From Fidelibacterota bacterium (GTDB lineage: Bacteria; Fidelibacterota; Marinisomatia; Marinisomatales; S15-B10): 33,679 bases of DNA. How positions within the stretch are numbered: the stretch's first letter is position 1; each line of letters opens with the position of its first letter. A program made the translations under genes and the position numbers. The DNA is taken from assembly GCA_004124465.1 (NCBI GenBank), contig SCKS01000003.1, positions 1 through 33,679 on the forward strand, given 5' to 3'. Shown piece by piece: positions 16,853 to 33,487 of this stretch. A model generated the notes under the pieces. The model saw only the letters and a program-made list of their open reading frames with translations, ran no database searches and was not told where the DNA came from.

Positions 16853-19800
16853 TTATTGGCAAAAACTGTCTTGGAGCACATCATTCATGGTGCTTACCAA
16901 AAGTTCTGCGTTGCTTTGGGTAAAGACCATGGGCGGCCTGATCTTCAGAACGTTGTGTCTTATGCCGTCAGTTGAGATGAGAATTCCTCGCTCCTTCATC
17001 CGTTCTGCCACGTAACTGGCATGCTTTGGCGCTGGTTCCATGGAATCGCGGATCTTTACCAATTCAACCCCTATAAAAAAGCCGCTTCCCCGAACGTCTC
17101 CAATGATAGGAAATTTCTCTTGAAGGGATTTGAGACGGGCAATTAGAAATTTTCCAACTAAAGCAGCATTTTCTTGAAGTTTTTCTTTATACAAAACATC
17201 CAAGACTGCCAGTGCGGCAGCACAAGAAACTGGGTTGCCGCCGTAAGTGTTAAAATATTCCATGCCTGTGTTGAAAGAGGCAGCAATTTCTGGGGTGGTT
17301 ACCACCGCGGCGATGGGGTGGCCGTTACCCATGGGTTTGCCAAGGGTCACAATGTCTGGAACCACCGCTTGGGCTTCAAACCCCCAGAAATGACTACCCA
17401 CCCGACCGAATCCCACCACCACCTCATCGGCAATGCAGACGCCGCCGGCCTTGCGAACATGTTCGTAAGCAGTGGCGAGATAATTTTTGGGTGGAATAAC
17501 CAGTCCACCACTGCTAATCATTGACTCACTAATGAAAGCGGACAACTTTTCACTCTTGTTTTTGATCTTATTCACGGCCTCTTCCACTTTATCTGCATAC
17601 CGTTCTCCCAGATTCGGTTCCTTGTATTTATATTCGCCCCGATAGCCGTCAGGCATGGGAACCATCTCAACATGATTAGCCAATCCTTTACCACCAAGTC
17701 CGTCAAACTTGTAAGGACTAACATCAATAAGTGAAATGAGATGGCCGTGATAGCCCCCTTCTACCGTGATCACATTTTCGCCGCCTGTGTGAGCATGTGC
17801 CATCCGAAGAGCCAAATCGTTGGCTTCGCTGCCGCTGTTCACAAAGAAACATACAGAAAGCGTTTCAGGCATGGTGTCGGTGATTCGTTCAGCCAGTCGG
17901 GTAATATTTTCATGGAGATATCGCGTGTTGGTGTTCAATACAGCAGTCTGTTTCTGAATCGCCTCTACAACTTTGGGATGGGAGTGACCAACGTGAGGTA
18001 CATTGTTCACCCCGTCCAAATATTTTCGTCCTTCGTTATCGTAAAGATACTGCATCCAACCCCGTACGATCTTTAGTGGTGTCTGATAAGAAAGGCTCAG
18101 CATAGGGCCTAAGTGACAATGCCGAGATTCTGAGATTTCTTCCGGCGATTCCTCTCTAGCAACTGCTTTGTCATTTTCAATTGCCAACAGGGGTGAGGGA
18201 TCGGGGGAAATGCTGAGCCAGATGTTTCGCTCGGATGGTTTGGCTACACCGGGAAAATTGCCAGAATAATTCAAACAGTTTGTCATCACCTGAAAATGAA
18301 GGTGAGGTGACCAGCCACCGTTTTCGCTTTCATTTCCGATTTGTCCAATCTTACTACCCGCCGAAACGGTATCGTCTTCGTTCAAAGACATTAGAACATC
18401 CCGACTCAGATGGCCGTAAAGGGTGAAGAAGTGAACTGTCTCCTCAGGAGAATGTTTCAGAATTACCGTGGGACCGTAGTCCAGATTCCTCTCATTGTCT
18501 TTCACAGAATGAACTACACCTTCCAAGGGAGAAAAGACCGAGGACCCTGCTTGTAGAAAGATATCGATCCCCAAGTGAATGGTCCTCCATTCCTCACCGT
18601 TGTTACCAACGGTGCGGAACTGATCAAAAGTGTAGATCATTCGGGGTTCATCATATCTGCCCAGTGCGGGTGTACCGATGATTTCAGTCAAAGCTTCCAT
18701 GTTTTTCCAGACACCGTTCGTCAGGTCCAGGCTACCGATGGAGAGATCAACCGCTCTTACTTTGCTAGTATTAAGATCGAGGTTAACTACTTTTGAAAAC
18801 TGACCCTTATGTTCATTCATCCATTGAACGAGGTGAGTAGTAGAAGGCGACGGCTCTAACCCGCAGGCGTGCCTGAAGGAGAAATGGGCAAACTCCGGTG
18901 ATATTTTCTTAAGCATTCCAAGCAGCTGCCACGCCGATGCTTCACTGACAGAGAGGTAATCATTCTCCGGCTCCAGTGATTTTTGGTGAGCCGCGATAGT
19001 TACTGTCATGCAAGATCTCAAACAGGAAAGGGCAAACAAGACTGATATCTCCTCCTCAGTTAAGGGAAAGGTTTTATGGTAGGAACAGATAATTTCCTTG
19101 GCGGTGGCCAAGGGATCTGGCTTGTTCAACATTGCGTAAGAGCATGCTACTGCTGGTTCAGCGGCCAGCCAGGAGTGGACGGAATCGCCTACATCGATGG
19201 CACCAACAATCGCACCTTCGCCGTTTGCATCGGATTTGACCAGTATGTTATGATCATTGGCATCGTTGTAAATGACACCTGTCCGGAGGTCATTTTGAAC
19301 GGGGAGCAGGGCATTTTCAATAATACTGAGGAAATGGTGAACAATATCTTCCCGCTTACTGTCATTGATTTCATCAATATGTTCACGGATAAGACCGATG
19401 CCGTTTTTCATATCCCAGAACAGTTTCCGGTCCATGGCTGGATGGGTGAAGTCAGAAAACGACCGGGTCACTTTGCCGAGGAATTGACCGAGTTGACCCA
19501 TAAGATAGGGTGAATGGGGGTAATAATCGGCCAGAAAAATGCCGTCCACAAAGGTGAGAAGTCTGACCCTTATTTCATCATCATCGCTGTTATGTGTATA
19601 GCCAATTAGGGCACCATTTTGGTCAGGTAGGGGCAGCGGCCATTGCCACTGGCTGTTGTTGGAAGAGAGATGAGTGAGTAACTGGTTCTGAAAATCGATC
19701 ACATCATCACTGTCGGCGTGATTACATACTTTCAGAACATATTTCTCATTTCTATTATTAGTGATAAGAAAGTTTCTGTCCCTTTCGCCGGCAAGTTCCA

Positions 19801-19891
19801 AGACCTCCCCTTTAATTCCGAAAACAATATCTGCGGCTCGGTTGGCATCTTCAACGGAAAAGGTGGGGCGGGGATGACGATCGATCTTCAT
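16853..19891 (-). CDS. Three-domain fusion: APH-like kinase, M23 metallopeptidase, class III PLP aminotransferase/phospho-lyase
   Basis: A 1012-residue cytoplasmic-looking protein without a signal peptide. Residues about 1-340 form an aminoglycoside-phosphotransferase-like kinase with catalytic loop YNDANDHN (Asp210, Asn215) and metal Asp233. Residues about 400-570 form an M23/LytM-type domain with zinc-site residues His439, Asp443 (HLGID) and His530/His532 (HLHF), plus YGH at 492-494. Residues about 590-1012 are a class III aminotransferase with NSGSEAND (685-692), PLP-ring Asp822 (DEVVVGFGR) and PLP Lys852 (LGKPMGNG). All three active sites look intact. The kinase plus class III PLP pairing parallels hydroxylysine kinase and the phosphohydroxylysine or phosphoethanolamine phospho-lyases, so a phosphorylate-then-eliminate route for an amino alcohol is a reasonable inference. 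The job of the M23 domain is unclear. The start has no evident Shine-Dalgarno. Confidence 0.92.
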
Positions 19892-21078: not shown

Positions 21079-23811
21079 GTGATAACTTATCCCGTGCCCT
21101 CGTCCAGAAAGAAGCGGCTCTTCCTCATAGATGGTTATGCCATGGTTTATCGGGCTCATTTTGCCATGATTAGAAGCCCTCTAATCACTTCCGATGGACG
21201 ACACACCAGCGCTCTTTTTGGGTTCATTAACTCTCTGTTTAAACTGTTGAGAGATGAATCTCCAGATTACCTTGCAGCCGTCTTCGATGGCAAAGAGAAA
21301 ACATTTCGTCATAAGATGTATCCGGAATACAAAGCTACCCGGGAAAAGATGCCGGATGAACTTCGAGAACAACTCCCCTATATGTGGAAATTGATTGAAG
21401 CCATGAATATTCCCCGACTGGAGATGGCAGGTTATGAAGCTGATGACATTATCGGCACGCTGGCGATGAAGGCACGAGCTGCGGGTTTGGAGTGCCGTAT
21501 CATTAGTGGCGACAAAGATTTTATGCAGCTTATCACTGATCAGATTCTTATGCATGCACCTGGTAAGAGTGGCGAGTCAATTATCTATGGTCCTTTGGAG
21601 GTGGAAGAGAAGTGGGGTGTGCCGCCGGAACGAATTATAGATCTGCTAGGACTCATGGGAGACAGTTCTGATAATGTACCTGGCGTCCAGGGAGTGGGTC
21701 AGAAAACAGCTGTGAAACTTTTACAGGAGTATGGCTCTTTCGAAAATATCCTTAAACATGCTGGAGAAGTGAAGAATAAACGTGTTCGGGAAGGGTTGAC
21801 GCAAGGCGTAGATGATGCGCACCTGTCGCGAGAACTTGTCACCATAAAAACGGATCTTGATCTGCCCATCGAAGTGGAAGAGATGGAATTGGGGCGGTTC
21901 GATTTTGAGACTATGGATCAGCTATTTCAGGAGCTGGAGTTTTTCCGACTTCAAAGTCAGCTGGATGCCTTCAGGGGTGAAGAGAATATCAAGATGGTGG
22001 AAGAGGTTGAGAAAGATTTTGTCACAGTGGAAAGTTCGAAGGAACTTAAAACTTTGGTCAAAACACTTAAAGGTGCCGAGCTGATTTCCTTTGATGTGGA
22101 ATCCACCAGCACCGATCCCATGCGTGCCGAGATAGTCGGTTTTAGTTTTGCTGTTAAGCCTGATGCCGGTTGGTATCTGCCTGTTTTATTTCCTGAAAAA
22201 GAAAAACCACTTTTTGGTGGTAATGACGACCTGTTAACTGTGTTGGCCGAACTAAAGCCCATCCTTGAAGATAAATCTCTTAGTAAGTGCGGTCAAAATA
22301 TTAAGTATGATATGCTGATTATGAAGCGTCATGGCATCGAGGTTAAGGGGGTGCAATTTGACACCATGATTGCAGCTCACCTCATCCGCCCAGAAGCCCA
22401 TTCCTACAAGCTGGATTACCTTAGCCAGGAACACTTGCGTTACACCATGCAGCCCATCACAGAGCTTATCGGTTCAGGCAAAGGTCAGAAAAGGATGGAT
22501 GAAGTTTCTTTGGAAGATATTTCTTTCTATGCTGCTGAAGATGCCGATGTCTGTCTTCAGCTGGTTCCAATTTTTAAGGAAAAATTGGAAGAGGTGTCGC
22601 TTGGAAAGATTTACACTGATGTTGAAGCACCTCTTTTGCCGACGCTGGTTAATATGGAGTATCACGGCGTATATGTGGATCAGAAAATAATGTGGGAGAT
22701 GTCTCAATGGATGGAGGGACAGCTGGACAGTTTTTCAACCGAGATATACAATCTTGCGGGGACTGAATTCAACATCAACTCCCCTCAACAGTTAGCCACG
22801 GTTTTGTTTGATGACCTGGCTCTTCCCCAAGTTCGAAAAAGGTCTACAGATGTAAATGTTTTGGAGTCACTCAGAACTCAGCACCCTCTTCCAGAAAAAA
22901 TTCTAGATTACCGGAAGTTCCAGAAATTGAAATCTACCTATGTAGATGCCATACCAGAAATGATTCACCCTGAGACTGGACGCATCCACTCGTCATTTAA
23001 CCAGACCGTCGCTGCAACTGGCCGTCTTTCGAGCAGCAATCCCAACTTCCAGAATATTCCTATCCGAACTGAAGAAGGTCGGGAAATAAGGAAAGCATTT
23101 CGCCCTCAAGAGAAAGGTTGGACACTTTTTTCAGCTGACTATTCACAGATAGAGCTCCGCGTTATGGCACATCTCAGTGGAGATGAGATGCTACGCGCTG
23201 CTTTTGAAGATGGTGAAGACATCCATGCGCACACTGCCGCAAATATTTACGGTGTTCCTGTGGATGGTGTTTTACCTGAGATGCGGCGCACTGCCAAGAT
23301 AGTCAACTTTGGCGTTATGTATGGTGCCGGTCCCTTCCGACTTTCCCAGGAACTGGGAATACCCATGAATGAGTCAAAAAAGATTATCGATTCATATTTT
23401 GAGCGGTATGTTGGTATTAAACGGTTTATTGATGAGATATTGGTGTTTGCTAGAAAAGAGAAGTATGTTAAGACTATGCTGGGACGGCGACGTTACTGTC
23501 ATGATATTTTAGACAGTAACCAACGGGTTCGAAGTGCAGTTGAACGAGCAACCGTTAACATGCCTATTCAGGGGACTGCCGCCGAAATGATTAAATTGGC
23601 TATGATCAATATTGACGGTAAGCTCCGTGAACAAAATTTTAAAACAAAGATGATCCTTCAGATTCATGATGAACTTCTGTTTGAAGTGCCTGATGAAGAG
23701 ATAGATGATGTTAAGGATCTAGTGTTGTCAGAAATGGAAAATGCTTTACCGTTAGATGTGCCGGTGGTGGTAGAATGGGGCGTCGGTGAATCTTGGTATC
23801 ATGCACACTGA
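21079..23811 (+). CDS. polA: DNA polymerase I
   Basis: A full three-domain repair and Okazaki-fragment-processing polymerase of 910 residues. The N-terminal 5'-3' exonuclease (about 1-300) shows LIDGYAMVYRAH, AGYEADDIIGT, SGDKDFMQL and GDSSDNVPGVQGVG. The central 3'-5' proofreading domain keeps its acidic residues (FDVES with Asp339 and Glu341, and YAAEDAD), so proofreading looks active. The Klenow polymerase core has motif A DYSQIELR (Asp687), motif B RRTAKIVNFGVMYG, and motif C QIHDE (Asp864). The start is GTG at 21079, without a clear Shine-Dalgarno. An in-frame GTG at 21094 is an alternative. It leads a long run of same-strand genes. Confidence 0.98.
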   Translation: MITYPVPSSRKKRLFLIDGYAMVYRAHFAMIRSPLITSDGRHTSALFGFINSLFKLLRDESPDYLAAVFDGKEKTFRHKMYPEYKATREKMPDELREQLPYMWKLIEAMNIPRLEMAGYEADDIIGTLAMKARAAGLECRIISGDKDFMQLITDQILMHAPGKSGESIIYGPLEVEEKWGVPPERIIDLLGLMGDSSDNVPGVQGVGQKTAVKLLQEYGSFENILKHAGEVKNKRVREGLTQGVDDAHLSRELVTIKTDLDLPIEVEEMELGRFDFETMDQLFQELEFFRLQSQLDAFRGEENIKMVEEVEKDFVTVESSKELKTLVKTLKGAELISFDVESTSTDPMRAEIVGFSFAVKPDAGWYLPVLFPEKEKPLFGGNDDLLTVLAELKPILEDKSLSKCGQNIKYDMLIMKRHGIEVKGVQFDTMIAAHLIRPEAHSYKLDYLSQEHLRYTMQPITELIGSGKGQKRMDEVSLEDISFYAAEDADVCLQLVPIFKEKLEEVSLGKIYTDVEAPLLPTLVNMEYHGVYVDQKIMWEMSQWMEGQLDSFSTEIYNLAGTEFNINSPQQLATVLFDDLALPQVRKRSTDVNVLESLRTQHPLPEKILDYRKFQKLKSTYVDAIPEMIHPETGRIHSSFNQTVAATGRLSSSNPNFQNIPIRTEEGREIRKAFRPQEKGWTLFSADYSQIELRVMAHLSGDEMLRAAFEDGEDIHAHTAANIYGVPVDGVLPEMRRTAKIVNFGVMYGAGPFRLSQELGIPMNESKKIIDSYFERYVGIKRFIDEILVFARKEKYVKTMLGRRRYCHDILDSNQRVRSAVERATVNMPIQGTAAEMIKLAMINIDGKLREQNFKTKMILQIHDELLFEVPDEEIDDVKDLVLSEMENALPLDVPVVVEWGVGESWYHAH
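23492..23520. repeat. Perfect nine-base inverted repeat inside polA
   Basis: GTTACTGTC at 23492-23500 is exactly complementary to GACAGTAAC at 23512-23520, with an 11-base A+T-rich loop. It lies within the coding sequence near motif B and may be chance. Confidence 0.4.
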
Positions 23812-23814
23812 GTT

Positions 23815-24738
23815 ATGGAAGCCTCTGTATCTCTAAAAAAAGTCGGTAAGGTTCTAAACGGTCGGTCCGTTCTTGCGGGTCTTTCTTTTGGTATCGAACG
23901 TGGTTCTATCATGGCTGTGGTGGGTCCAAACGACTCTGGTAAGAGTGCTCTGTTGAAAACCATTGCCGGTTTCTCCAAACCTGAGTACGGTTCTGTGTTC
24001 ATTGATGGGAAAGATGTGCAGCTTCGAAGGATTGAAACGGCCAGCGTAGTGGGGTATATGCCGCAACGGGCCAACTTCGATTCCCAACTTACCATTTTCG
24101 AAAATTTACAATTTCACGGCCGGCTGTACCTCATGGCCCCTCAATTGTTGAATAGCCGGATCGCTTCTCTATCTGACCGCCTCGGTTTTCGTGAATTCAT
24201 TCATGATTTCCCTCATACACTTTCATCCGGCTATCAGCAGCGAGCACTTCTTGCCAGAACTTTCCTTCCTGATCCCCATGTTCTTCTAATTGAAGAACCA
24301 ACTGCCTCATTGGATCTCCGCGCTCAGTACGAAGTGTGGGATTTTCTACAGGAGATGCGAGGTAGTAAAACAATCATTTATACCACACAGTCCATTCGTG
24401 AAGCTGAGCGTGTACATGACAGATTGGTCATCATGGACCACGGTAAAGTGGCTCTAGATGGTAAACTTGATCGGCTTCTTGAGAATGCTGGTGAACTGTT
24501 CCATTTCCAGATCCACTTCAAAAAGTTGTCTAAAGAGCTTTATGATAACATGAGTAAAGTGACCACTGTAGTCAGTCCATCCCAGGTGGGAGAGGTGTTC
24601 GATTTTTATGCCAGGGAGCGGGAAGTCTTTTTTGACATTATGAAACTGGCTATCCAGGAAGAACTTGTGGACTATGCTGCTGATAAAGTTGGTCTTGAAA
24701 CGCTTATTATGACTTCCACCGAGGAGCCGATCCGTTGA
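23815..24738 (+). CDS. ABC transporter ATP-binding protein with altered switch residue
   Basis: The ATPase subunit of an ABC-2-type exporter together with the next gene. Walker A is GPNDSGKS (37-44), the Q-loop Gln84 lies in YMPQR, the signature is LSSGYQQ (136-142) and Walker B is VLLIEE (156-161), followed by PTASLDL. At the H-loop, where a His normally follows the two threonines, the sequence reads YTTQSIREAE, so Gln192 replaces the switch His. The usual GG or GA in Walker A is Asp-Ser here. About 90 residues after the ATPase core form a C-terminal extension of unknown function. It starts three bases after the polA stop. The substrate is unknown. Confidence 0.88.
   Translation: MEASVSLKKVGKVLNGRSVLAGLSFGIERGSIMAVVGPNDSGKSALLKTIAGFSKPEYGSVFIDGKDVQLRRIETASVVGYMPQRANFDSQLTIFENLQFHGRLYLMAPQLLNSRIASLSDRLGFREFIHDFPHTLSSGYQQRALLARTFLPDPHVLLIEEPTASLDLRAQYEVWDFLQEMRGSKTIIYTTQSIREAERVHDRLVIMDHGKVALDGKLDRLLENAGELFHFQIHFKKLSKELYDNMSKVTTVVSPSQVGEVFDFYAREREVFFDIMKLAIQEELVDYAADKVGLETLIMTSTEEPIR
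24721..24726 (+). promoter_or_regulatory. Shine-Dalgarno supporting the TTG start of the ABC permease gene
   Basis: GAGGAG ends eight bases before the TTG at 24735, which overlaps the upstream stop as TTGA. The alternative ATG at 24747 lies 20 bases from the motif, so the TTG is preferred. Confidence 0.55.
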
Positions 24739-25487
24739 CCCTTTTAATGGCATTTCTGAACCGCCGGTTGGCCCAACTCAGGCACAGATGGATTGGTGAA
24801 CTGTCACTGGCTTTGCTTCTACCCATTGGCATATATATCACTCTCGGTTTTGGATTGTCGGGAGGTATACCAAAGCTGCAAGGTGTCCCTCAGCTCGGTT
24901 GGTTGATTCCGGGAATAGTTCTGATGGTGGCATTTGCTGGTGCTCTGATTGCTCTCTTTAATGATCTTTTTCATAACAGAGGCATCAACGGTTTCTTTTG
25001 TTCAATTTATGCTTCGCCTCACACGCCGACCTCAACTGTTATGAGCCTCATGTTTTCAATGTTGCCTGAGGGAATCATCAGGTCGCTTCTGGCGCTGGGA
25101 ATTCTCCAGACTCTACTCGGCTACGGCTACCCATTTTTTGGACAGCTTCTGTTCCTTTTCCTCATTGCTCTCGCTGTTTTATTGGGTGGCATGGTAGGTT
25201 TAACTCTGGGAATTCTCGCCCGCGATGCCGTTGCAAGCCAGATTGTAATTCTTCTTCTTCTTCTCAGTCTCGGCTTCTGTTCGGAGTGGTTTGTTCCTCT
25301 TAATGTTTTTCCCACAGCGATTCAGCCGTTGCTTCATGTTCTCCCTACCTCCATCCTTGTCAAGATAGGCCGAGATCTGCTGTTGAATCAGGACTCTTCT
25401 CCGGTCCTGATCCTTGTGGTATTAGGAACAATAGCTCTCTGGACTGTCGTCAACAGTTTCCTGTTCCCCCGCATTTCCACTGAATGA
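24735..25487 (+). CDS. ABC-2-type transporter permease
   Basis: A 250-residue inner-membrane protein with about six predicted transmembrane helices. The first is near residues 23-40, and others lie at about 55-75, 100-125, 130-160, 165-190 and 225-243. The layout matches ABC-2 permeases that pair with a separate ATPase, and the ATPase gene is directly upstream with a four-base overlap. The start TTG at 24735 has a GAGGAG eight bases upstream. It ends in an ATGA overlap with the next gene. The exported substrate cannot be deduced. The neighbouring cell-wall genes make an envelope compound plausible. Confidence 0.82.
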   Translation: MTLLMAFLNRRLAQLRHRWIGELSLALLLPIGIYITLGFGLSGGIPKLQGVPQLGWLIPGIVLMVAFAGALIALFNDLFHNRGINGFFCSIYASPHTPTSTVMSLMFSMLPEGIIRSLLALGILQTLLGYGYPFFGQLLFLFLIALAVLLGGMVGLTLGILARDAVASQIVILLLLLSLGFCSEWFVPLNVFPTAIQPLLHVLPTSILVKIGRDLLLNQDSSPVLILVVLGTIALWTVVNSFLFPRISTE

Positions 25488-25948
25488 AAGCTTACCTGTC
25501 CGGCGGGATGGAAAATGCCCCGGAGTTGGGCCGAGCTTGGCGAGATGAGATGACCGCATGGCTGAACAATCAGCTGGGTCACACCGTCTTTAATCCTGTT
25601 GAGATACAAAATGAAACTCTGACTGCCGAAGAGGTTGAGAATTTCCGGAGCTGGCGTTTTAATCAGCGCGCCAAATTTAAGTTGACTGTGAGGAAACTGA
25701 TCAAGCGGGATCTGGATGCTATTGATAATGAAATCGATTATGTTATTTGTTACTGGGACGAAACTGTTCTGAAGGGTGGAGGAACCCATGGAGAAGTAAC
25801 CTTGGCTCATCGTATGGGGGTTCCTGTTTATCTAGTAATGAATATGCCTTTTGATGATGTGAGCTCTTGGATTCTCGGTTGTTGCGAAGGTGAATTTGAC
25901 AGTTTTGTAGATCTGAAACAGTTTCTGGTGGAGGAGTATGGTGGCTGA
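25484..25948 (+). CDS. Nucleoside 2-deoxyribosyltransferase-like protein
   Basis: A 154-residue protein of the Nuc_deoxyrib_tr/NDT-like alpha/beta fold. The N-terminal strand and loop KAYLSGGMENA corresponds to the nucleotide or base-binding loop. IDYVICYWDE and GGGTHGEVTLAHRMGVPVYLV match the GTxxE-type motif, with Glu104 as the candidate catalytic residue. NDT family enzymes cleave or exchange N-glycosidic bonds of deoxynucleosides, and many distant members have unknown substrates. It overlaps the permease by ATGA and the kinase gene by 11 bases, so it is translationally embedded in the operon. Whether it acts on nucleosides or on another glycoside linked to the cell-wall pathway is unknown. 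Confidence 0.75.
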   Translation: MKAYLSGGMENAPELGRAWRDEMTAWLNNQLGHTVFNPVEIQNETLTAEEVENFRSWRFNQRAKFKLTVRKLIKRDLDAIDNEIDYVICYWDETVLKGGGTHGEVTLAHRMGVPVYLVMNMPFDDVSSWILGCCEGEFDSFVDLKQFLVEEYGG

Positions 25949-26879
25949 CGACTGGGTTGTCTCCGCCGATGGAGGTGGCAGCTCAACAGATGTTCTTCTG
26001 GCAAATATACCATTAAAAACCGCACTATTGAAGAGGGGAGGCGGAACCAATCCCAATGTTTACGGTGATGATGGCATTGAGAGGCTGAGAAAGCTAATGC
26101 AGAAAGTACTCTCTGAAACTGATGTAGCTGCAATAAATGTTAAAACCTGTGTTGTGGGTATGGCGGGGATAAGTCACCCGAAATATCGGCCCACCTTGAA
26201 ACAAACCTGTGAAGCACTTTTTCCTCAAGCGTCTTTGCAACTGATCTCTGATGCCGAACTGGCACACAGGACAATCTGGGGAGAAGGGCCTGGTATGACA
26301 CTCATTGTAGGAACCGGTTCCATCGCGGTTGGGGAAGATAAGGATGGAAAATTGAGGAGAGCTGGAGGTTTTGGTTTTCAAAGTGGGGATGTAGGAGGTG
26401 GCTATTGGTTCGGAAAGTCTCTTCTTACTGAACTCATCGCCGCTGACCGTTCTAATGATGATGAGATTGTCGAACTGAGACAATTGGTGACAGACCATTT
26501 CGGAGTTAGCAGTTTTGAAGAGGCCCTTGAAAAGGCGTCTGGTGGTGAAGGTGTGTCAATTGTGGCGGGTCTTACACCTGAGATTTTTCAACTTGCTGAG
26601 AATGGGAATTTCATTGCCAGTCAAATAGTTGCCTCAGGCGCTGATGGACTCCGGGAGTTGGTGGATGAGCTAATTGAAAAGATTGACTTCTCCGGTGATT
26701 TGGGTCTTCACGGCTCAGTCATCATAGAATCACATTTCTATCGAACGATGCTCATGAACAGGCTAGAATTTGATGGTTGGAGGAAGGCTGATTTTCCCGC
26801 TGTATTTGGTGGACTAGTCGCGGCTGGCGCTGTGGCGGAACCGGAAGAATTGGTTAAGTTCTCGATCTCAAATGGCTAA
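25938..26879 (+). CDS. BadF/BadG-type sugar kinase (N-acetylglucosamine/N-acetylmuramate kinase-like)
   Basis: An ASKHA-fold kinase of 313 residues. The phosphate-1 loop is SADGGGSSTDVLL (from residue 9), the candidate catalytic Asp105 is in ISDAELAH, the phosphate-2 loop is VGTGSIAVG (124-132), and GGFGFQSGDVGGGYWFG (143-159) is the family signature seen in NagK/MurK-like proteins. These enzymes phosphorylate GlcNAc, MurNAc or glucosamine. Its position before alanine racemase and the NagZ fusion makes an amino sugar from peptidoglycan the likely substrate. The ATG at 25938 lies three bases after GGAGG. A GTG one codon later has more usual spacing, so the exact start is uncertain by one residue. 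Confidence 0.82.
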   Translation: MVADDWVVSADGGGSSTDVLLANIPLKTALLKRGGGTNPNVYGDDGIERLRKLMQKVLSETDVAAINVKTCVVGMAGISHPKYRPTLKQTCEALFPQASLQLISDAELAHRTIWGEGPGMTLIVGTGSIAVGEDKDGKLRRAGGFGFQSGDVGGGYWFGKSLLTELIAADRSNDDEIVELRQLVTDHFGVSSFEEALEKASGGEGVSIVAGLTPEIFQLAENGNFIASQIVASGADGLRELVDELIEKIDFSGDLGLHGSVIIESHFYRTMLMNRLEFDGWRKADFPAVFGGLVAAGAVAEPEELVKFSISNG

Positions 26880-27981
26880 TCCTATTGCCGAAATAAATCT
26901 CGGTCGCCTTGTTCATAATTATAGACTCATTAAAGATCGTGTTGGTAATGCGGAGGTGTTGGCGGTTGTAAAGGCCGACGGTTACGGTCACGGTGCTGTT
27001 CCTATTTCCAAGGCACTTGAAAAAGTGGGTGTAAACTATTTTGGAGTATTTTCTATTGGCGAAGCGTTGGAACTGAGGAATGCCGCTATCAAGGGTGAGA
27101 TTATTATGTTTGAGCGTCTTACCCGTGAGGCTGTTCCTCTTGCTGTAGAACATGCAATCACTGTTAATGTTTCATGGTTTGGAGATCTTGATTTATTTGA
27201 GGAAATATCCAAAAAGGGAGGACCTTTACCAAAGTATCATATTAAAGTTGATACAGGTATGACCAGGCTGGGAATACCCCATGATGAAGTTGCATCTGTT
27301 ACCGACCGGATTTTGGACACAACTGGTCAGCAACCAGAAGGTATTTATACCCACCTCTCCACTTCTGATGAAGGGGATTTATCATTTGCCTACGAACAGA
27401 AAACACTATTTGAGGATTCAGTAGATCAAATCAGGGGAATTTGCTCGCCCAATTGGATACATATTGCTAACAGTGGTGCATTGGTTAATATGCCTGATTC
27501 TTTCTACAATATGGTGCGCGTGGGGATGCTATTTTACGGTGCAAAACCTTCCGAAGAGATGATCAACCCTCTTTCAATTGAACCAGTAATGAATTTCAAA
27601 GGTAAGATTGTTCTCGTCAGAAGTGTGGAAGCAGGAACACCAATTAGCTATGGTGCCCTTTATCGTCCGGAAACAGACATCAAGCTGGGGGTGGTTCAAG
27701 TGGGATTTGCTGACGGTATGCCAAGACCGTGGTTCGAGCGGGGATTTGTTGGCTGGAAAGGAGGCCGGTATAAAATTGCAGGTCGGATATGCATGGATCA
27801 GTTCATGGTGGACTTTGGGGATAGTGAACCTTCCGAAGGCGACACCGTGTTGATCTGGGGAAAAGATGATGAAAATGCCATTCCAGTTGAAGAAATCAGT
27901 AAAGATATCGGGCTAAATCCATACACACTTTTCACGGCTATGAGCGGTAAAAGAATCGAAAGGATATATCTGAATGAATAG
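26872..27981 (+). CDS. alr: Alanine racemase
   Basis: A PLP enzyme that interconverts L- and D-alanine. The PLP lysine is Lys34 in AVVKADGYGHG, the KVDTGMTRLG segment is at 125-134, the catalytic Tyr260 lies in TPISYGALY, and GRICMDQFMVD follows. The length of 369 residues is normal, with no signal peptide, so it is cytoplasmic. It overlaps the kinase gene by eight bases and the NagZ fusion gene by eight bases. It can supply D-alanine for wall synthesis, or in this operon may convert D-alanine released from scavenged wall peptides to L-alanine. No Shine-Dalgarno is evident at the ATG, consistent with coupled translation. Confidence 0.97.
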   Translation: MANPIAEINLGRLVHNYRLIKDRVGNAEVLAVVKADGYGHGAVPISKALEKVGVNYFGVFSIGEALELRNAAIKGEIIMFERLTREAVPLAVEHAITVNVSWFGDLDLFEEISKKGGPLPKYHIKVDTGMTRLGIPHDEVASVTDRILDTTGQQPEGIYTHLSTSDEGDLSFAYEQKTLFEDSVDQIRGICSPNWIHIANSGALVNMPDSFYNMVRVGMLFYGAKPSEEMINPLSIEPVMNFKGKIVLVRSVEAGTPISYGALYRPETDIKLGVVQVGFADGMPRPWFERGFVGWKGGRYKIAGRICMDQFMVDFGDSEPSEGDTVLIWGKDDENAIPVEEISKDIGLNPYTLFTAMSGKRIERIYLNE

Positions 27982-30793
27982 TGCAAAGCAGCTGGTATTG
28001 GGAATCCTACTAACTACCCTCTGGTACTGTACGCCGCCTTCTCCAACTATTGAAGTAAAACTTAAAGAACTTACCTTAAGTGACTTAAATATTGAAGAAA
28101 AGGTTGGACAAATGTTCATGGTGAGGTATACCGGTGACTTTTACCGCAATGATGCCGGCAGGTTTCAGAAGGTGAAGCGGCTTATCACAGAGCGCCACCT
28201 CGGCGGTGTTATCACTTTCGTAGGGTCAGTTCACGGAACAGTGGCGAACCTGAATGAATTCCAGTCCTTCCCCAAGATTCCACTGCTTGTAGCGGCCGAT
28301 TTTGAAAGGGGCGTGGGTCAGAAGATAGATGGTGCTACGCTTTTTCCGTCCAATATGGCCATGGCAGCTACTGGAGATCCGGAGCTTTCCTACGAGCAGG
28401 GTAAGATCACTGCTCTGGAAGCACGTGCTATCGGGGTTCACGTCACATTCTCACCTGTGGTAGATGTGAACAGCAATCCGGAAAATCCAATTATCAACTT
28501 CAGGTCTTATGGTGATTCGCCAGGAATCGTTTCAAAGTACGGGAATGCCTTTATCAGGGGTGCGCAGGATCACGGCCTTATCGCTTGCGCCAAGCACTTT
28601 CCCGGACATGGTGATACGGGCGTCGATTCGCACAGCACATTGCCGGTCATCACATCTGATGAGGTGACTTTCAGGAAAATCGATCTGGCCCCGTTCAAAG
28701 ATGCCGTCGATGCGGGAGTAAAAATGATGATGATTGCCCACATTGCCATTCCTGATATGGATGAGAGTCGCTTGCCTGCAACCCTATCCTACAAACTTAA
28801 CGGACAAATACTGAGAGAAGAGTTCGGATTTGACGGTCTCATCGTAACCGACGCCATGGAAATGGGTGGAATTACTGAAGCTTTCTGGTCGGCCGAGGCG
28901 GCAATTCGAACAATTGAGGCAGGTTCTGATATTGTCTTACTTCCTATTGAATATGATACAGCTATTGACGGTGTAATTTCAGCTGTCCGGAGCGGACGGC
29001 TTTCTGAAGAAAGAATTGATGAATCGGTTCGGAAGATTCTTCAGGCTAAGAAAAACATGGGTTTGTGGGATAAGCGGACTGTTTCCGTTAAGCACGCAAG
29101 GGATATTCTTAGCGGATGGCAGCATACTTCATCAGCGGCCAAGGCGGCCCGAAAATCAATAACTTTGGTTAAGGATGAGAACGATAATATTCCCATTCAT
29201 GTAGGCGCCAGCAAGAAAATGAGTCATATTCTCCTTGCCACCAGTGAAGGGATGCTTTCTTTTTCGACTCCTTTTCGGTCTGCCGTCTCCCGACTCCATG
29301 GCAATGTAGATTCGCAGTTTCATTACCAACCTCTCTCAGAAACCCAGATTTCAGAGATCGTAGCGGAGACTGATTCTTCTGATCATATCCTAGTGTCTCT
29401 GCTTATCCGCGTTGCCGAGTTTCTCGGCACGTTTACCATTGACTCAACACATCGTGAACTTATAACCAGACTGCAAGAGACGGGAAAACCAGTTGTGGTG
29501 GTCTCATTTGGTTCTCCATACGTTAGTGATGTAGATGAGATAGGCACTTACCTGGCTGGTTATGGCTACGGTTCAATTTCTATGCGGGCCATGGCTAATG
29601 CACTGTTTGGTGGTGCCAGCATTACCGGCACACTTCCGGTGGATCTCAGCCCATCATTGCTTCAGGGACATGGGGTGAAACGAATAATCGGTAGACCGTT
29701 AGCCATGTCATCAGAAAAGATCGATTTCAGTGCCGCCCGATCCGTTCTTGAAAAAGCTGTAAGCGATTCTATCTTTCCTGGTGCCTCAGCCATTGTTCTG
29801 AAGGAGGGCAAGGTTGTCTGGACGCACCAGACCGGCCGTCATACTTACGATCCTTCATCTGCATCTGTAACAGCCGGGACCATTTATGATCTTGCTTCTT
29901 TGACGAAAGTGGTGGCTACCACGGGTGTGACTATGAAGCTGGTGGCGCAAAAAATATTGCCGCTAGATGAGCCGGTGAAAGATTTCATCCCTGAATTCAC
30001 TGGCGGCGGTAAAGAGAAAGTGACTATTCGGCACTTACTGACCCACTCCGCCGGGCTGAAGCCCTTTGATGAGTATCCGCTAGGTTCTACAGCTGATGAT
30101 ATTCTGTCTGATATTATCCAACGACCTTTGGTATATGATCCGGGGGAAGAGTACAGATATAGCGATTTCGGTCCTATTCTTCTCGCAAAGATTTGTGAAA
30201 AAGTGTCAGGGAAAGTTTTTGAAGATCTCGCCTCCAGTTACATTTTTAAACCGCTAGGCATGGAGAGTACCTTCTTCAATCCCGATTCATCGGTTTTCGG
30301 GCGGGTGGCACCTACGGAGATTGATGAGCGATACGGTCGAGGATTGGTTCACGGCATCGTTCACGATGAAAGAGCGTGGCAGCTGGGTGGTGCGGCCGGC
30401 CATGCGGGACTTTTCTCCACGGTTGATGATCTGGCAGCCTATGCACAAATGATGATGGATGAAGGTTTCTATGGTGGACGGCGCTATTTCAGCCGTTCGA
30501 TCATCGAAGAGTTTACCCGGAAGCAGGAAATGCCAACTGGCAGCGACAGGGCACTTGGATGGGACACACGGGCGAAAGAAGGCAGCTGGTCTGGAGATTA
30601 TTTCAGCGAAAGTAGTTTTGGTCATACCGGATTTACTGGTACTTCCATGTGGATCGATCCTGTCCGTCGAATCGGCGTGATCCTCTTTACCAACAGAGTA
30701 CATCCTACACGAGAAAGAGGAGGAATGACTCAGGTTCGCCGAGATTTTCATAATGCAGTCATGGAAGCGATTCTCAACAAAACATCCTCCTGA
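27974..30793 (+). CDS. nagZ: NagZ-type GH3 glucosaminidase fused to a beta-lactamase-fold (AmiE-like) hydrolase
   Basis: A 939-residue exported protein. An N-terminal hydrophobic segment ends at Cys19 (LWYC), so it may be a lipoprotein, although Tyr before the Cys is unusual. Residues about 38-380 are a family 3 glycoside hydrolase of the NagZ type. They carry KHFPGHGDTGVDSH (207-220) with the Asp218/His220 dyad, and VTDAMEMGG with the nucleophile Asp293. A GH3 C-terminal domain follows, and from about 585 a serine beta-lactamase-fold domain with SLTK (Ser642, Lys645), YSD (729-731) and HTG (884-886). In Bacillus subtilis NagZ and AmiE act in sequence, removing GlcNAc and then the peptide from MurNAc. 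Here both are on one chain. AAAGGA lies about nine bases before the ATG. Antibiotic resistance is unlikely. Confidence 0.93.
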   Translation: MNSAKQLVLGILLTTLWYCTPPSPTIEVKLKELTLSDLNIEEKVGQMFMVRYTGDFYRNDAGRFQKVKRLITERHLGGVITFVGSVHGTVANLNEFQSFPKIPLLVAADFERGVGQKIDGATLFPSNMAMAATGDPELSYEQGKITALEARAIGVHVTFSPVVDVNSNPENPIINFRSYGDSPGIVSKYGNAFIRGAQDHGLIACAKHFPGHGDTGVDSHSTLPVITSDEVTFRKIDLAPFKDAVDAGVKMMMIAHIAIPDMDESRLPATLSYKLNGQILREEFGFDGLIVTDAMEMGGITEAFWSAEAAIRTIEAGSDIVLLPIEYDTAIDGVISAVRSGRLSEERIDESVRKILQAKKNMGLWDKRTVSVKHARDILSGWQHTSSAAKAARKSITLVKDENDNIPIHVGASKKMSHILLATSEGMLSFSTPFRSAVSRLHGNVDSQFHYQPLSETQISEIVAETDSSDHILVSLLIRVAEFLGTFTIDSTHRELITRLQETGKPVVVVSFGSPYVSDVDEIGTYLAGYGYGSISMRAMANALFGGASITGTLPVDLSPSLLQGHGVKRIIGRPLAMSSEKIDFSAARSVLEKAVSDSIFPGASAIVLKEGKVVWTHQTGRHTYDPSSASVTAGTIYDLASLTKVVATTGVTMKLVAQKILPLDEPVKDFIPEFTGGGKEKVTIRHLLTHSAGLKPFDEYPLGSTADDILSDIIQRPLVYDPGEEYRYSDFGPILLAKICEKVSGKVFEDLASSYIFKPLGMESTFFNPDSSVFGRVAPTEIDERYGRGLVHGIVHDERAWQLGGAAGHAGLFSTVDDLAAYAQMMMDEGFYGGRRYFSRSIIEEFTRKQEMPTGSDRALGWDTRAKEGSWSGDYFSESSFGHTGFTGTSMWIDPVRRIGVILFTNRVHPTRERGGMTQVRRDFHNAVMEAILNKTSS

Positions 30794-30797
30794 TCTT

Positions 30798-32195
30798 GTG
30801 CAGACTGTCGATTTTATTGTTCTTTTTGTCTATTTGACCATTGTTTCCGGAGTGGCACTTTGGGCTGGAGGTAAACAGTCTTCTGCAAAATCATATTTTC
30901 TGGCTGAGAAAAATCTACCGTGGTGGATGATCATGCTTTCGGTGGTTGCTACGGAAACATCCGTCCTCACGTTTCTAAGCATTCCCGGTGTGGCATACAG
31001 TGGCAACTTCGGATTCCTTCAACTGGCATTGGGATACATTGCCGGTCGGTGGATCGTAGCTCGATATCTGTTGCCGCTCTATTTTGAAGAGGGATTAGAG
31101 TCTACTTACGAATTTCTCCGCAACCGATGGGGGCAATCGGTCCAGCGTTTGGGTTCACTGGTTTTCCAGGTGACGCGAATTTTGGCCGATGGCGTTCGAC
31201 TTTTCATGACAGCCATTCCTTTAGCACTGATAACCGGTTGGTCTTACGGAGTCTCCATAGCGGTCATAGCGGGGTTTACTCTAATCTATACTATTCTGGG
31301 CGGCATTCGGTCCGTGGTGTGGGCCGATTCCATTCAGTTTATCATTTATATTATGGGTGCTTTCGTAAGCATAGGCCTGTTAAATGGCTTGGTTGACGGA
31401 GGGTGGTCTACCATTTTTTCCGAAGCGCGGGAAGCGGGAAAGTTTGCCGTCTTTCAAGGAGGAGATCCGGTTACTCACCAGTACCACTTCGTCACCGCGG
31501 TAATGGGGGGAATGTTTCTATCACTGGCTTCTCACGGAACGGATCACCTTATGGTTCAGCGTCTTATGGCTGCCAGGAATGTGGAGGCTGGTCAAAGGGC
31601 CCTGATTGGCAGTGGTTTTATGGCCATTTTTCAGTTTTCTCTTTTCCTTCTGGTTGGGACGGGAATTTGGGTTTTCAATAAAGGTGTGGATATGAACAGT
31701 AACGAAGTATTCTCCACATTCATTATTGACAATCTTCCCGTTGGTGTGAAGGGACTCATCGTTGCCGCAATCTTTTCAGCGGCCATGTCAACCCTGAGCT
31801 CATCCATCAATGCATTGGCCTCTACCACCATGACAGATTGGATCAAGTGGATTGCACCTGATCGCTATAACCTGACCACTTCCCGTTTTCTTTCCCTCAT
31901 CTGGACCGTTGTGCTGGCAGGCGGCGCAACACTGTTTACTTCTACGGAGGGGTCTCTGGTGGAGATCGGTCTTGCAATCGCCTCCTTCACCTACGGGGGC
32001 CTGTTGGGATTTTTTCTACTAGGAAGAATGAAAGCGGAGTTTCCAGCTTCATCAGTCATAGCAGGTTTTGTAGCATCCATTGCGGCCATGGTTGTCGTTG
32101 TTAGATTTACTGCCGTGGCGTGGCCCTGGTACACAATTATCGGTTTATCTGTCATGGTAGCCACATCTGTCATAATGCGAATTATACAAAAATGA
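30798..32195 (+). CDS. Sodium/solute symporter (SSS family)
   Basis: A multi-pass inner-membrane transporter of 465 residues with an estimated 12-13 helices. Family features include the amphipathic KSYFLAEKNLPWW stretch after the first helix, the TETSVLTFLSIPG segment near the sodium site, and GGIRSVVWADSIQF in the middle. The frame is open back to an ATG at 30753, which would overlap the previous gene by 41 bases. I prefer the GTG at 30798, four bases after that stop and directly before the first membrane helix. SSS members take up sugars, sialic acid, amino acids and vitamins. Sitting between a NagZ fusion and a DUF1343 protein, it is a good candidate for uptake of MurNAc, GlcNAc or a muropeptide fragment. 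Confidence 0.9.
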   Translation: MQTVDFIVLFVYLTIVSGVALWAGGKQSSAKSYFLAEKNLPWWMIMLSVVATETSVLTFLSIPGVAYSGNFGFLQLALGYIAGRWIVARYLLPLYFEEGLESTYEFLRNRWGQSVQRLGSLVFQVTRILADGVRLFMTAIPLALITGWSYGVSIAVIAGFTLIYTILGGIRSVVWADSIQFIIYIMGAFVSIGLLNGLVDGGWSTIFSEAREAGKFAVFQGGDPVTHQYHFVTAVMGGMFLSLASHGTDHLMVQRLMAARNVEAGQRALIGSGFMAIFQFSLFLLVGTGIWVFNKGVDMNSNEVFSTFIIDNLPVGVKGLIVAAIFSAAMSTLSSSINALASTTMTDWIKWIAPDRYNLTTSRFLSLIWTVVLAGGATLFTSTEGSLVEIGLAIASFTYGGLLGFFLLGRMKAEFPASSVIAGFVASIAAMVVVVRFTAVAWPWYTIIGLSVMVATSVIMRIIQK

Positions 32196-33487
32196 ACCGC
32201 TTCCAAAAAGTTACCATTTATCTTTTGTTGCTTCAGTCGGTTACTATTACCGGCCAGGAGTTTGAGCATTCCAAAGTAGTTACTGTCCCGGATATGGGTT
32301 TTTTGCCGGGCGTTTTTTCCGGCCTCGATATCCTCCAGGAAATGAAGTTTGAGCAACTCCGCGATAAGCGGCTGGCGATCCTTACAAACCAAAGCGCGCT
32401 GAACAGGGACGGTAAACATTTCTTGGACCTTCTGGCTGAACAGAAAGACAAGTTCGATGTGCAAATAATCTTTACACCGCAATACGGTATCCTCACTGAT
32501 CCCGTTCACTCTTTAAAGCCGCCGCCGGACGGTATGGATGAAAGGTTTGATGCCCAAATAAAACGGCTCTGGGGGCGGGAGTACAGGCCCAACGTACTCG
32601 ATCTTCGGGAGGTGGATCTTGTAATCATAGATTTACAGGATACAGGGGTTCGATTCCATACGTTTATGACTACGGTCACCAAAGTAATGGAAGCAGCGGC
32701 GGAGTATGAGAAACCGGTGATATTACTGGATCGGCCGAATCCTCTCAACGGAAATATTCTGGACGGGCCGGTGGTGAGACCCCATTTCCAGTCTTTTGTG
32801 GGATATCATCTTGTCCCCATCCGCCACGGTATGACAGTGGGTGAGTATGCCCTTATGGTGAATGAGACGGGATGGATCCGCCAGTCCGTCATTTGTGACC
32901 TGACGGTTATTCCCATGTCCAACTGGCGACGAGATATGTGGATAGACGAAACGGGACTCACCGTTACGCCGTTGTGGAAAGGGATTGTTGATCCTGTGAC
33001 ACTGACTGCTGCAGCAGGAATGGGTCTACTGGAAGGGACCAACCTCTCATTTGGTGAAGGGACGTCCAAACCTTACACTGTTGTGGGTGCGCCGTGGCTG
33101 GTACCTCATCAGCTGTTAATGGGTCTGAACAAAGCCGGTCTGCCCGGTGTCCGTTTTGCGGAAACAACTTTCACGCCTGATTCGCTGTCTGACAATGTTT
33201 CTCATCCCTTATACGCTGGCCAAGAATGTTACGGCGTGAAGCTGATCATCGAAAACAAGAACCGGTTTGATCCTTTGAGAACCACAGTCACCATTCTTTC
33301 CCTTACCGCCAATTTGGAGCCCCGCCGATTTAAATGGGTGGGAAATAATTATGTGGATAAGCTGTACGGACACAACTACCTCCGCCTTTTCATTGCTCAG
33401 GAGAGAGACATCAGGAAGCTCCCTGCCACATGGTCCGAAGAAGTGATCAGGTTTAACCAGTTTCGCCAGAAATTTCTTCTTTACTGA
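32192..33487 (+). CDS. Exported DUF1343/NamZ-like protein with altered motifs
   Basis: Belongs to the DUF1343 family, whose characterised members (NamZ, B. subtilis YbbC) are exo-N-acetylmuramidases. Family hallmarks are ILTNQSAL, IIDLQDTGVRFHTF, LLDRPNPLNG, IPIRHGMT-like PIRHGMTVGEYA, and LLEGTNLS. Two conserved sites differ from what I recall of the family: PEHG is PQYG here (96-99), and GRGT is GEGT. The usual TGxPVYSLYG stretch is also not recognisable. The frame is open back to 32120, but the ATG at 32192 forms an ATGA overlap with the symporter stop and starts a clear signal peptide (MNRFQKVTIYLLLLQ), giving 431 residues. It may act on a modified substrate, or bind it without cleaving. 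Confidence 0.85.
   Translation: MNRFQKVTIYLLLLQSVTITGQEFEHSKVVTVPDMGFLPGVFSGLDILQEMKFEQLRDKRLAILTNQSALNRDGKHFLDLLAEQKDKFDVQIIFTPQYGILTDPVHSLKPPPDGMDERFDAQIKRLWGREYRPNVLDLREVDLVIIDLQDTGVRFHTFMTTVTKVMEAAAEYEKPVILLDRPNPLNGNILDGPVVRPHFQSFVGYHLVPIRHGMTVGEYALMVNETGWIRQSVICDLTVIPMSNWRRDMWIDETGLTVTPLWKGIVDPVTLTAAAGMGLLEGTNLSFGEGTSKPYTVVGAPWLVPHQLLMGLNKAGLPGVRFAETTFTPDSLSDNVSHPLYAGQECYGVKLIIENKNRFDPLRTTVTILSLTANLEPRRFKWVGNNYVDKLYGHNYLRLFIAQERDIRKLPATWSEEVIRFNQFRQKFLLY

Follow-up and report, generated by a model that had tools for sequence, protein, structure and literature searches.

We interpret a five-gene run from an uncultured ocean bacterium as a locus for the PTS-free salvage of the murein sugar MurNAc, with a probability of about 0.74. 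This is the best reading because murQ is present in the genome, remote relatives of the kinase in other phyla often lie near murQ, nagZ, namZ or amiE-like genes, the symporter has matching affinities, and the kinase model matches the fold of MurK. The window, i.e. the whole stretch of 33,679 nucleotides that was analysed, is the entire contig C19 of a MAG of 1.48 Mb (147 contigs, 77% complete), which taxonomy places in SAR406/Marinimicrobia, in agreement with the marine lineage supposed in an earlier note on this DNA. Fidelibacterota is now the name of this group (PMC11652737). Members of SAR406 are numerous in the ocean but hardly any are in culture, and the locus offers a concrete gene set (kinase, symporter and NagZ-AmiE fusion, plus murQ-anmK at another site) with which those members of the phylum that build a wall may reuse MurNAc.

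Between 25938 and 33487 the plus strand carries uninterrupted ORFs for five genes, in the order BadF-type kinase, alanine racemase (alr), NagZ–AmiE-like fusion, SSS symporter and NamZ-like protein, with neighbours overlapping by 4-41 nt (Table 1). The earlier note had counted six consecutive genes; the further exported protein that it placed in the run was rejected, the interval holding five ORFs only. The five genes close, on the 3′ side, a longer run that opens with polA, followed by the ABC ATPase, the ABC-2 permease and the 154-aa ORF, and the junctions from polA down to the kinase measure +3, −4, −4 and −11 nt in turn. From this spacing we infer that a transcription unit of nine genes, from polA through NamZ, is likely. 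A promoter and terminator scan gave counts not above those of shuffled sequences. No PTS gene is found in the run, and an SSS symporter is present instead.

Table 1. Features of the run from polA to the NamZ-like gene, with coordinates in the window.
Feature	Coordinates	Strand	Basis and remarks
polA, DNA polymerase I	21079..23811	+	Pfam/NCBIfam DNA polymerase I, 1113 bits; 3 nt to next gene; upstream end of syntenic block, kept in relatives
ABC transporter ATPase, GldA/DrrA-like	23815..24738	+	PF00005 2e-26; TIGR03522 under its cut-off; syntenic companion; role in salvage unlikely
ABC-2 type permease	24735..25487	+	PF01061 3e-9; syntenic companion
154-aa ORF	25484..25948	+	no Pfam/NCBIfam match; 11-nt overlap with kinase start; 38-96% identity in relatives, kept at the same locus across the order
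BadF-type sugar kinase, MurK-like, predicted MurNAc or MurNAc/GlcNAc 6-kinase	25938..26879	+	PF01869; PDB 8zo3 match; D105
alr, alanine racemase	26872..27981	+	TIGR00492 317 bits
Exported GH3 NagZ and beta-lactamase-fold AmiE-like amidase fusion (putative)	27974..30793	+	Pfam domains; motifs
SSS-family Na+/solute symporter, predicted MurNAc importer	30753..32195	+	PF00474; PDB match 5nv9
NamZ-like exported protein, class B paralogue, PQYG with Q97	32192..33487	+	PF07075 and PF20732

The kinase exhibits a Pfam match to BcrAD_BadFG (6e-13), and its only NCBIfam match, to the NagK model, reaches 73 bits, far under the cut-off of 370. The best PDB match by phmmer is 8zo3, a MurNAc/GlcNAc kinase (3e-15), and the same entry, C. 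acetobutylicum MurK, is the top Foldseek match of the AlphaFold2 model (mean pLDDT 83, with residues 145-153 poor) at TM 0.79/0.81. This nearest solved structure by both sequence and fold has GTGSI and (S/T)N-x-N features in common with our kinase, at 22% identity over the fold alignment, but our protein has Ser, not Asn, before the catalytic Asp. The catalytic residue is D105, preceded by S104; at the latter position Thr is found in T. forsythia MurK and Asn in GlcNAc/glucose kinases (PMC10465942). According to the MurK specificity rules, a bulky Glu or His in the lactyl pocket excludes MurNAc (PMC10465942). In the window kinase G143-G144 lie in this pocket, whose residues are Gly-Gly-Phe, without bulky Glu or His. 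As judged from the model, the protein combines the ASKHA fold, the catalytic Asp and the space for the lactyl ether that characterize MurK-type enzymes, and we predict a MurK-like MurNAc or MurNAc/GlcNAc 6-kinase, closer to the MurK of C. acetobutylicum than to that of T. forsythia.

A scan of GTDB genomes with the kinase gave 544 matches, of which the best 80 were taken and 73 remote loci could be scored; the fractions that follow are descriptive, since this sample is the best-scoring part of the 544. The 73 remote relatives, nearly all in other phyla, show about 22-38% identity. Within 5 kb, murQ was present at 31 of these 73 best-scoring loci and at least one of murQ, nagZ/amiE-like, namZ or anmK at 41, while the remaining 32 presented no recognised wall gene at that distance, partly because of contig ends. 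Remote kinases near wall-salvage genes occur in Chloroflexota, Acidobacteriota, Gemmatimonadota, Bacillota and other phyla, as nagZ-namZ-amiE-anmK-kinase-murQ in Chloroflexota operons and as nagZ-amiE-SSS-kinase in Gemmatimonadota. A T. forsythia-like route for MurNAc that needs no PTS appears widespread beyond this species. The amino-sugar kinase proposed in the earlier note is therefore well in keeping, at the level of sequence, with the MurK fold match, the small lactyl-pocket residues and the remote relatives beside murQ.

The salvage reading has a limit in that the kinase family also includes GlcNAc and glucose kinases, which are among the sequence and fold relatives of our protein. Even the MurK of C. 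acetobutylicum accepts GlcNAc as well as MurNAc (PMC10465942), and a kinase with an importer would also suit GlcNAc released by NagZ. It is nevertheless unlikely that kinase and symporter take mainly GlcNAc freed by the NagZ domain, or GlcNAc and MurNAc equally, with MurNAc passing mostly through AnmK and MurQ: position 104 is Ser rather than the Asn of GlcNAc/glucose kinases, the lactyl pocket is lined by small residues, murQ, which is needed only for MurNAc-6-P, co-occurs with the remote kinases, and a standard nagA is absent from the family.

The symporter (Pfam SSF, 5e-29) scored 240-339 bits, with 34-43% identity, against the kinase-linked SSS proteins of other phyla, whereas paralogues encoded in the same genome or by close relatives gave at most about 64 bits and 31% identity or less. 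In the PDB it is matched best by 5nv9, a sodium:solute symporter which we take to be a sialic-acid transporter, and an amino sugar bearing a carboxyl group would suit as substrate. The closeness to SSS proteins beside remote kinases argues for the Na+ symporter as the probable import route, as the earlier note had it. The gene may start at GTG 30798, the start of most orthologues.

The fusion protein, of 939 aa, matches Glyco_hydro_3 (PF00933, 9e-87), GH3_C (8e-9) and Beta-lactamase (1e-67) in Pfam. The GH3 part (about residues 40-560) is close to YbbD/NagZ structures and carries KHFPGHGDTGVDSH at 207 and TDAMEM at 292, which is consistent with an exported GH3 NagZ of the B. subtilis type with its catalytic motifs. 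The second part (about residues 593-923) is a putative AmiE-like amidase with a beta-lactamase-fold domain and the SxxK/YSD/HTG serine-hydrolase motifs, namely SLTK at 642, YSD at 729 and HTG at 884. In B. subtilis, nagZ, amiE and namZ form a murein-sugar locus, and here too NagZ, AmiE-like and NamZ-like exported proteins are encoded together, so that the Pfam domains agree with the nagZ-amiE-namZ logic suggested before. However, unlike the B. subtilis locus, the run has NagZ and AmiE fused, contains alr and polA, has no PTS and encodes a NamZ in which Glu is missing from the PEHG motif.

The assignment of the last gene to DUF1343 (NamZ-like) stood as regards domains, NamZ_N (1.5e-59) and NamZ_C (9e-40) being both found in Pfam, but the protein is a divergent paralogue. 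Two NamZ paralogues exist in the relatives: canonical class A, with PEHG in 39 of 39 sequences, and class B, to which the window protein belongs, a separate clade (support 100) that shares the polA-alr locus. Within class B (n = 62) the motif has Glu in 35 sequences and Gln in 27; the tree shows three or more changes, and Gln is fixed in large clades. The window protein presents PQYG, with Q97. We presume this Glu to be the proposed catalytic residue of NamZ, and both solved NamZ-like structures have it. Considering that it is invariant in canonical NamZ and replaced by Gln here, hydrolase activity of the window protein is doubtful, although class B retains the other conserved motifs, DxQDxGxR and DRPNP. 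A tentative and somewhat unlikely proposal is that class B, vertically kept, is no canonical hydrolase and binds MurNAc or muropeptides, e.g. for delivery to the symporter or for sensing of wall turnover, or that it works by an altered mechanism. The lost glutamate is a directly testable oddity. Class A was not seen in the own genome (the MAG being incomplete) and is present elsewhere in both congeners. No NamZ at all was found in the listed f15 family genomes, which measure 0.7-1.0 Mb and are in many cases 90-98% complete. Two genomes of one genus, G006 and G009, differ at the class B motif, with PEFG and PQFG respectively.

The remaining pathway genes were looked for elsewhere in the genome. 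The earlier note saw no MurQ, which holds for the window only: murQ is on contig C40 (369 bits against a cut-off of 302), side by side with anmK (L062, G000:C40:5122-7187). Among the 46 genomes searched, 39 contain murQ above the cut-off; none was found over it in the f15 genomes G023, G033, G039 and G044. The nagA equivalog above cut-off was absent from the own genome and family and occurred in G011 only, among 16 genomes. The congeners encode a 774-aa protein (L157:187-2511, minus strand) that matches the NCBIfam "glucosamine-6-phosphate deaminase-like" model under its cut-off and has no Pfam match; inspection of its sequence revealed, further along, a PHHDD motif like that of PIG-L deacetylases. 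This protein may be a NagB-like enzyme with a fused deacetylase, a one-protein substitute for NagA and NagB. LD-carboxypeptidase (S66, PF02016) was not found in the own genome or the congeners, and AmpG (TIGR00901) was not found in the family, so a disaccharide route is not evident. The own genome contains murA (341 bits, partial at a contig end), which is complete and over cut-off in the congeners; therefore, the organism probably makes its own wall and is probably no MurNAc auxotroph.

The comparison of synteny that the earlier note proposed shows the order kept in the own family and two sister families. The complete block polA-ABC-ABC2-ORF154-kinase-alr-fusion-SSS-NamZ is present in G001, which belongs to the same genus, in G003 and G005 of the same family and in G013 of another. 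G009 has it nearly whole, G011 and G024 (third family) have it interrupted by an insertion of 4 kb, and G002, G004, G006, G007 and G025 show part of it at contig ends. With this recurrence the gene order exceeds chance. A distant Marinimicrobia contig, SP3060 (L108), has polA-ABC-ABC2-kinase-fusion-SSS-NamZ, without alr, and families lacking kinase and fusion still keep the frame polA-ABC-ORF154-alr-(SSS)-NamZ. It could be argued that the genes are chance neighbours in a streamlined genome with no common pathway, as the run also includes polA, the ABC transporter and alr, which have other functions. We regard this as very improbable, since three families of the order and a further Marinimicrobia lineage keep kinase, fusion, SSS and NamZ together, and the kinase is found with murQ in other phyla.

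The kinase occurs in 13 of the 46 genomes, in single copy and adjoining alr in all 13. In one MAG (L073:1566-3326) kinase and alr form a single open frame, which may be a fusion, a small deletion or an assembly error; G003, a congener of that MAG, has them as separate genes. The alr product (Ala_racemase N and C domains, 3e-56 and 8e-34 in Pfam) is the sole alanine racemase above cut-off in the own genome, and the same holds for all relatives searched. The earlier note had suggested that alr may belong to the salvage pathway and make D-Ala of the peptide stems usable, and its constant position next to the kinase, the overlap of the two ORFs and the single frame in the L073 MAG fit this idea. 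We nevertheless hold it to be quite improbable: alr is the only such gene of each genome, it stays at the locus in families without kinase and fusion, and the L108 salvage run lacks it. The wall-salvage genes can thus occur without alr, and alr without kinase and fusion, and alr is probably a housekeeping gene and not an add-on for the use of D-Ala.

For MurNAc salvage we propose the following route, in which substrates and compartments are predicted from the gene content, motifs, order and conservation described above and from the presence of murQ, anmK and murA. In the periplasm, the NagZ domain would remove GlcNAc from muropeptides and the AmiE-like domain would take off the stem peptide; MurNAc would then be released by a NamZ, possibly that of the locus and more surely the canonical one found elsewhere in the genus. 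The SSS symporter would carry MurNAc with Na+ across the inner membrane, the BadF/MurK-like kinase would convert it to MurNAc-6-P, and MurQ, encoded with AnmK on the other contig, would cut off D-lactate to yield GlcNAc-6-P, anhydro-MurNAc entering the same MurQ step through AnmK. The NagB-like protein of the congeners, with its apparent deacetylase part, may stand in for NagA and NagB, while alr, polA and the ABC genes would be housekeeping neighbours. Against the salvage reading stand the NamZ without the conserved Glu, the position of murQ outside the operon, the absence of nagA from the own genome and family, and that of LD-carboxypeptidase from the own genome and congeners.

The earlier note saw in the locus a possible means for a seawater organism to feed on the wall debris of other cells; the alternative is recycling of the organism's own turnover products. 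Such feeding would be served by hydrolases that are exported and by an importer for monosaccharides, and there is a precedent in the phylum, as Fidelibacter multiformis is described as living on exogenous muropeptides, a reliance traced to the phylum's ancestor (PMC11652737). However, the operon has no outer-membrane receptor, its genes are tied to polA and alr and not to a regulated catabolic unit, and with murA present the same genes would serve recycling of the own wall, as in B. subtilis. Feeding on foreign walls is thus possible, though we lean against it; own-wall recycling matches the gene set equally well.

The replacement of a PTS by a sodium symporter and a BadF kinase, another point of the earlier note, is seen here but is already known from murTKQ of T. 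forsythia, where an SSS-superfamily transporter takes up MurNAc with no PTS involved, a BadF-type (PF01869) kinase phosphorylates it and MurQ then acts on the product (PMC5790795). Transporter and kinase also share one run here, with alr and the fusion between them. Unlike in murTKQ, murQ lies outside the run, the hydrolases are within it, and murA is present, so that the MurNAc auxotrophy of T. forsythia, which goes with a lack of MurA and MurB, is not expected. For the cultured member of the phylum, F. multiformis IA91, the description reports muropeptide catabolism via MurNAc-6P, which gives this use a precedent in the phylum, and an inability to make peptidoglycan, unlike the murA-bearing genome analysed here (PMC11652737); the likeness concerns catabolism. 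The proposed chemistry is of a known kind, a T. forsythia-type route combined with B. subtilis hydrolases, and the most unusual features are the NagZ-AmiE fusion, the housekeeping operon setting and a NamZ paralogue that has lost its glutamate.

Elsewhere in the window, positions 16853-19891 of the minus strand encode one 1012-aa protein with APH phosphotransferase, M23 peptidase and class-III aminotransferase domains.
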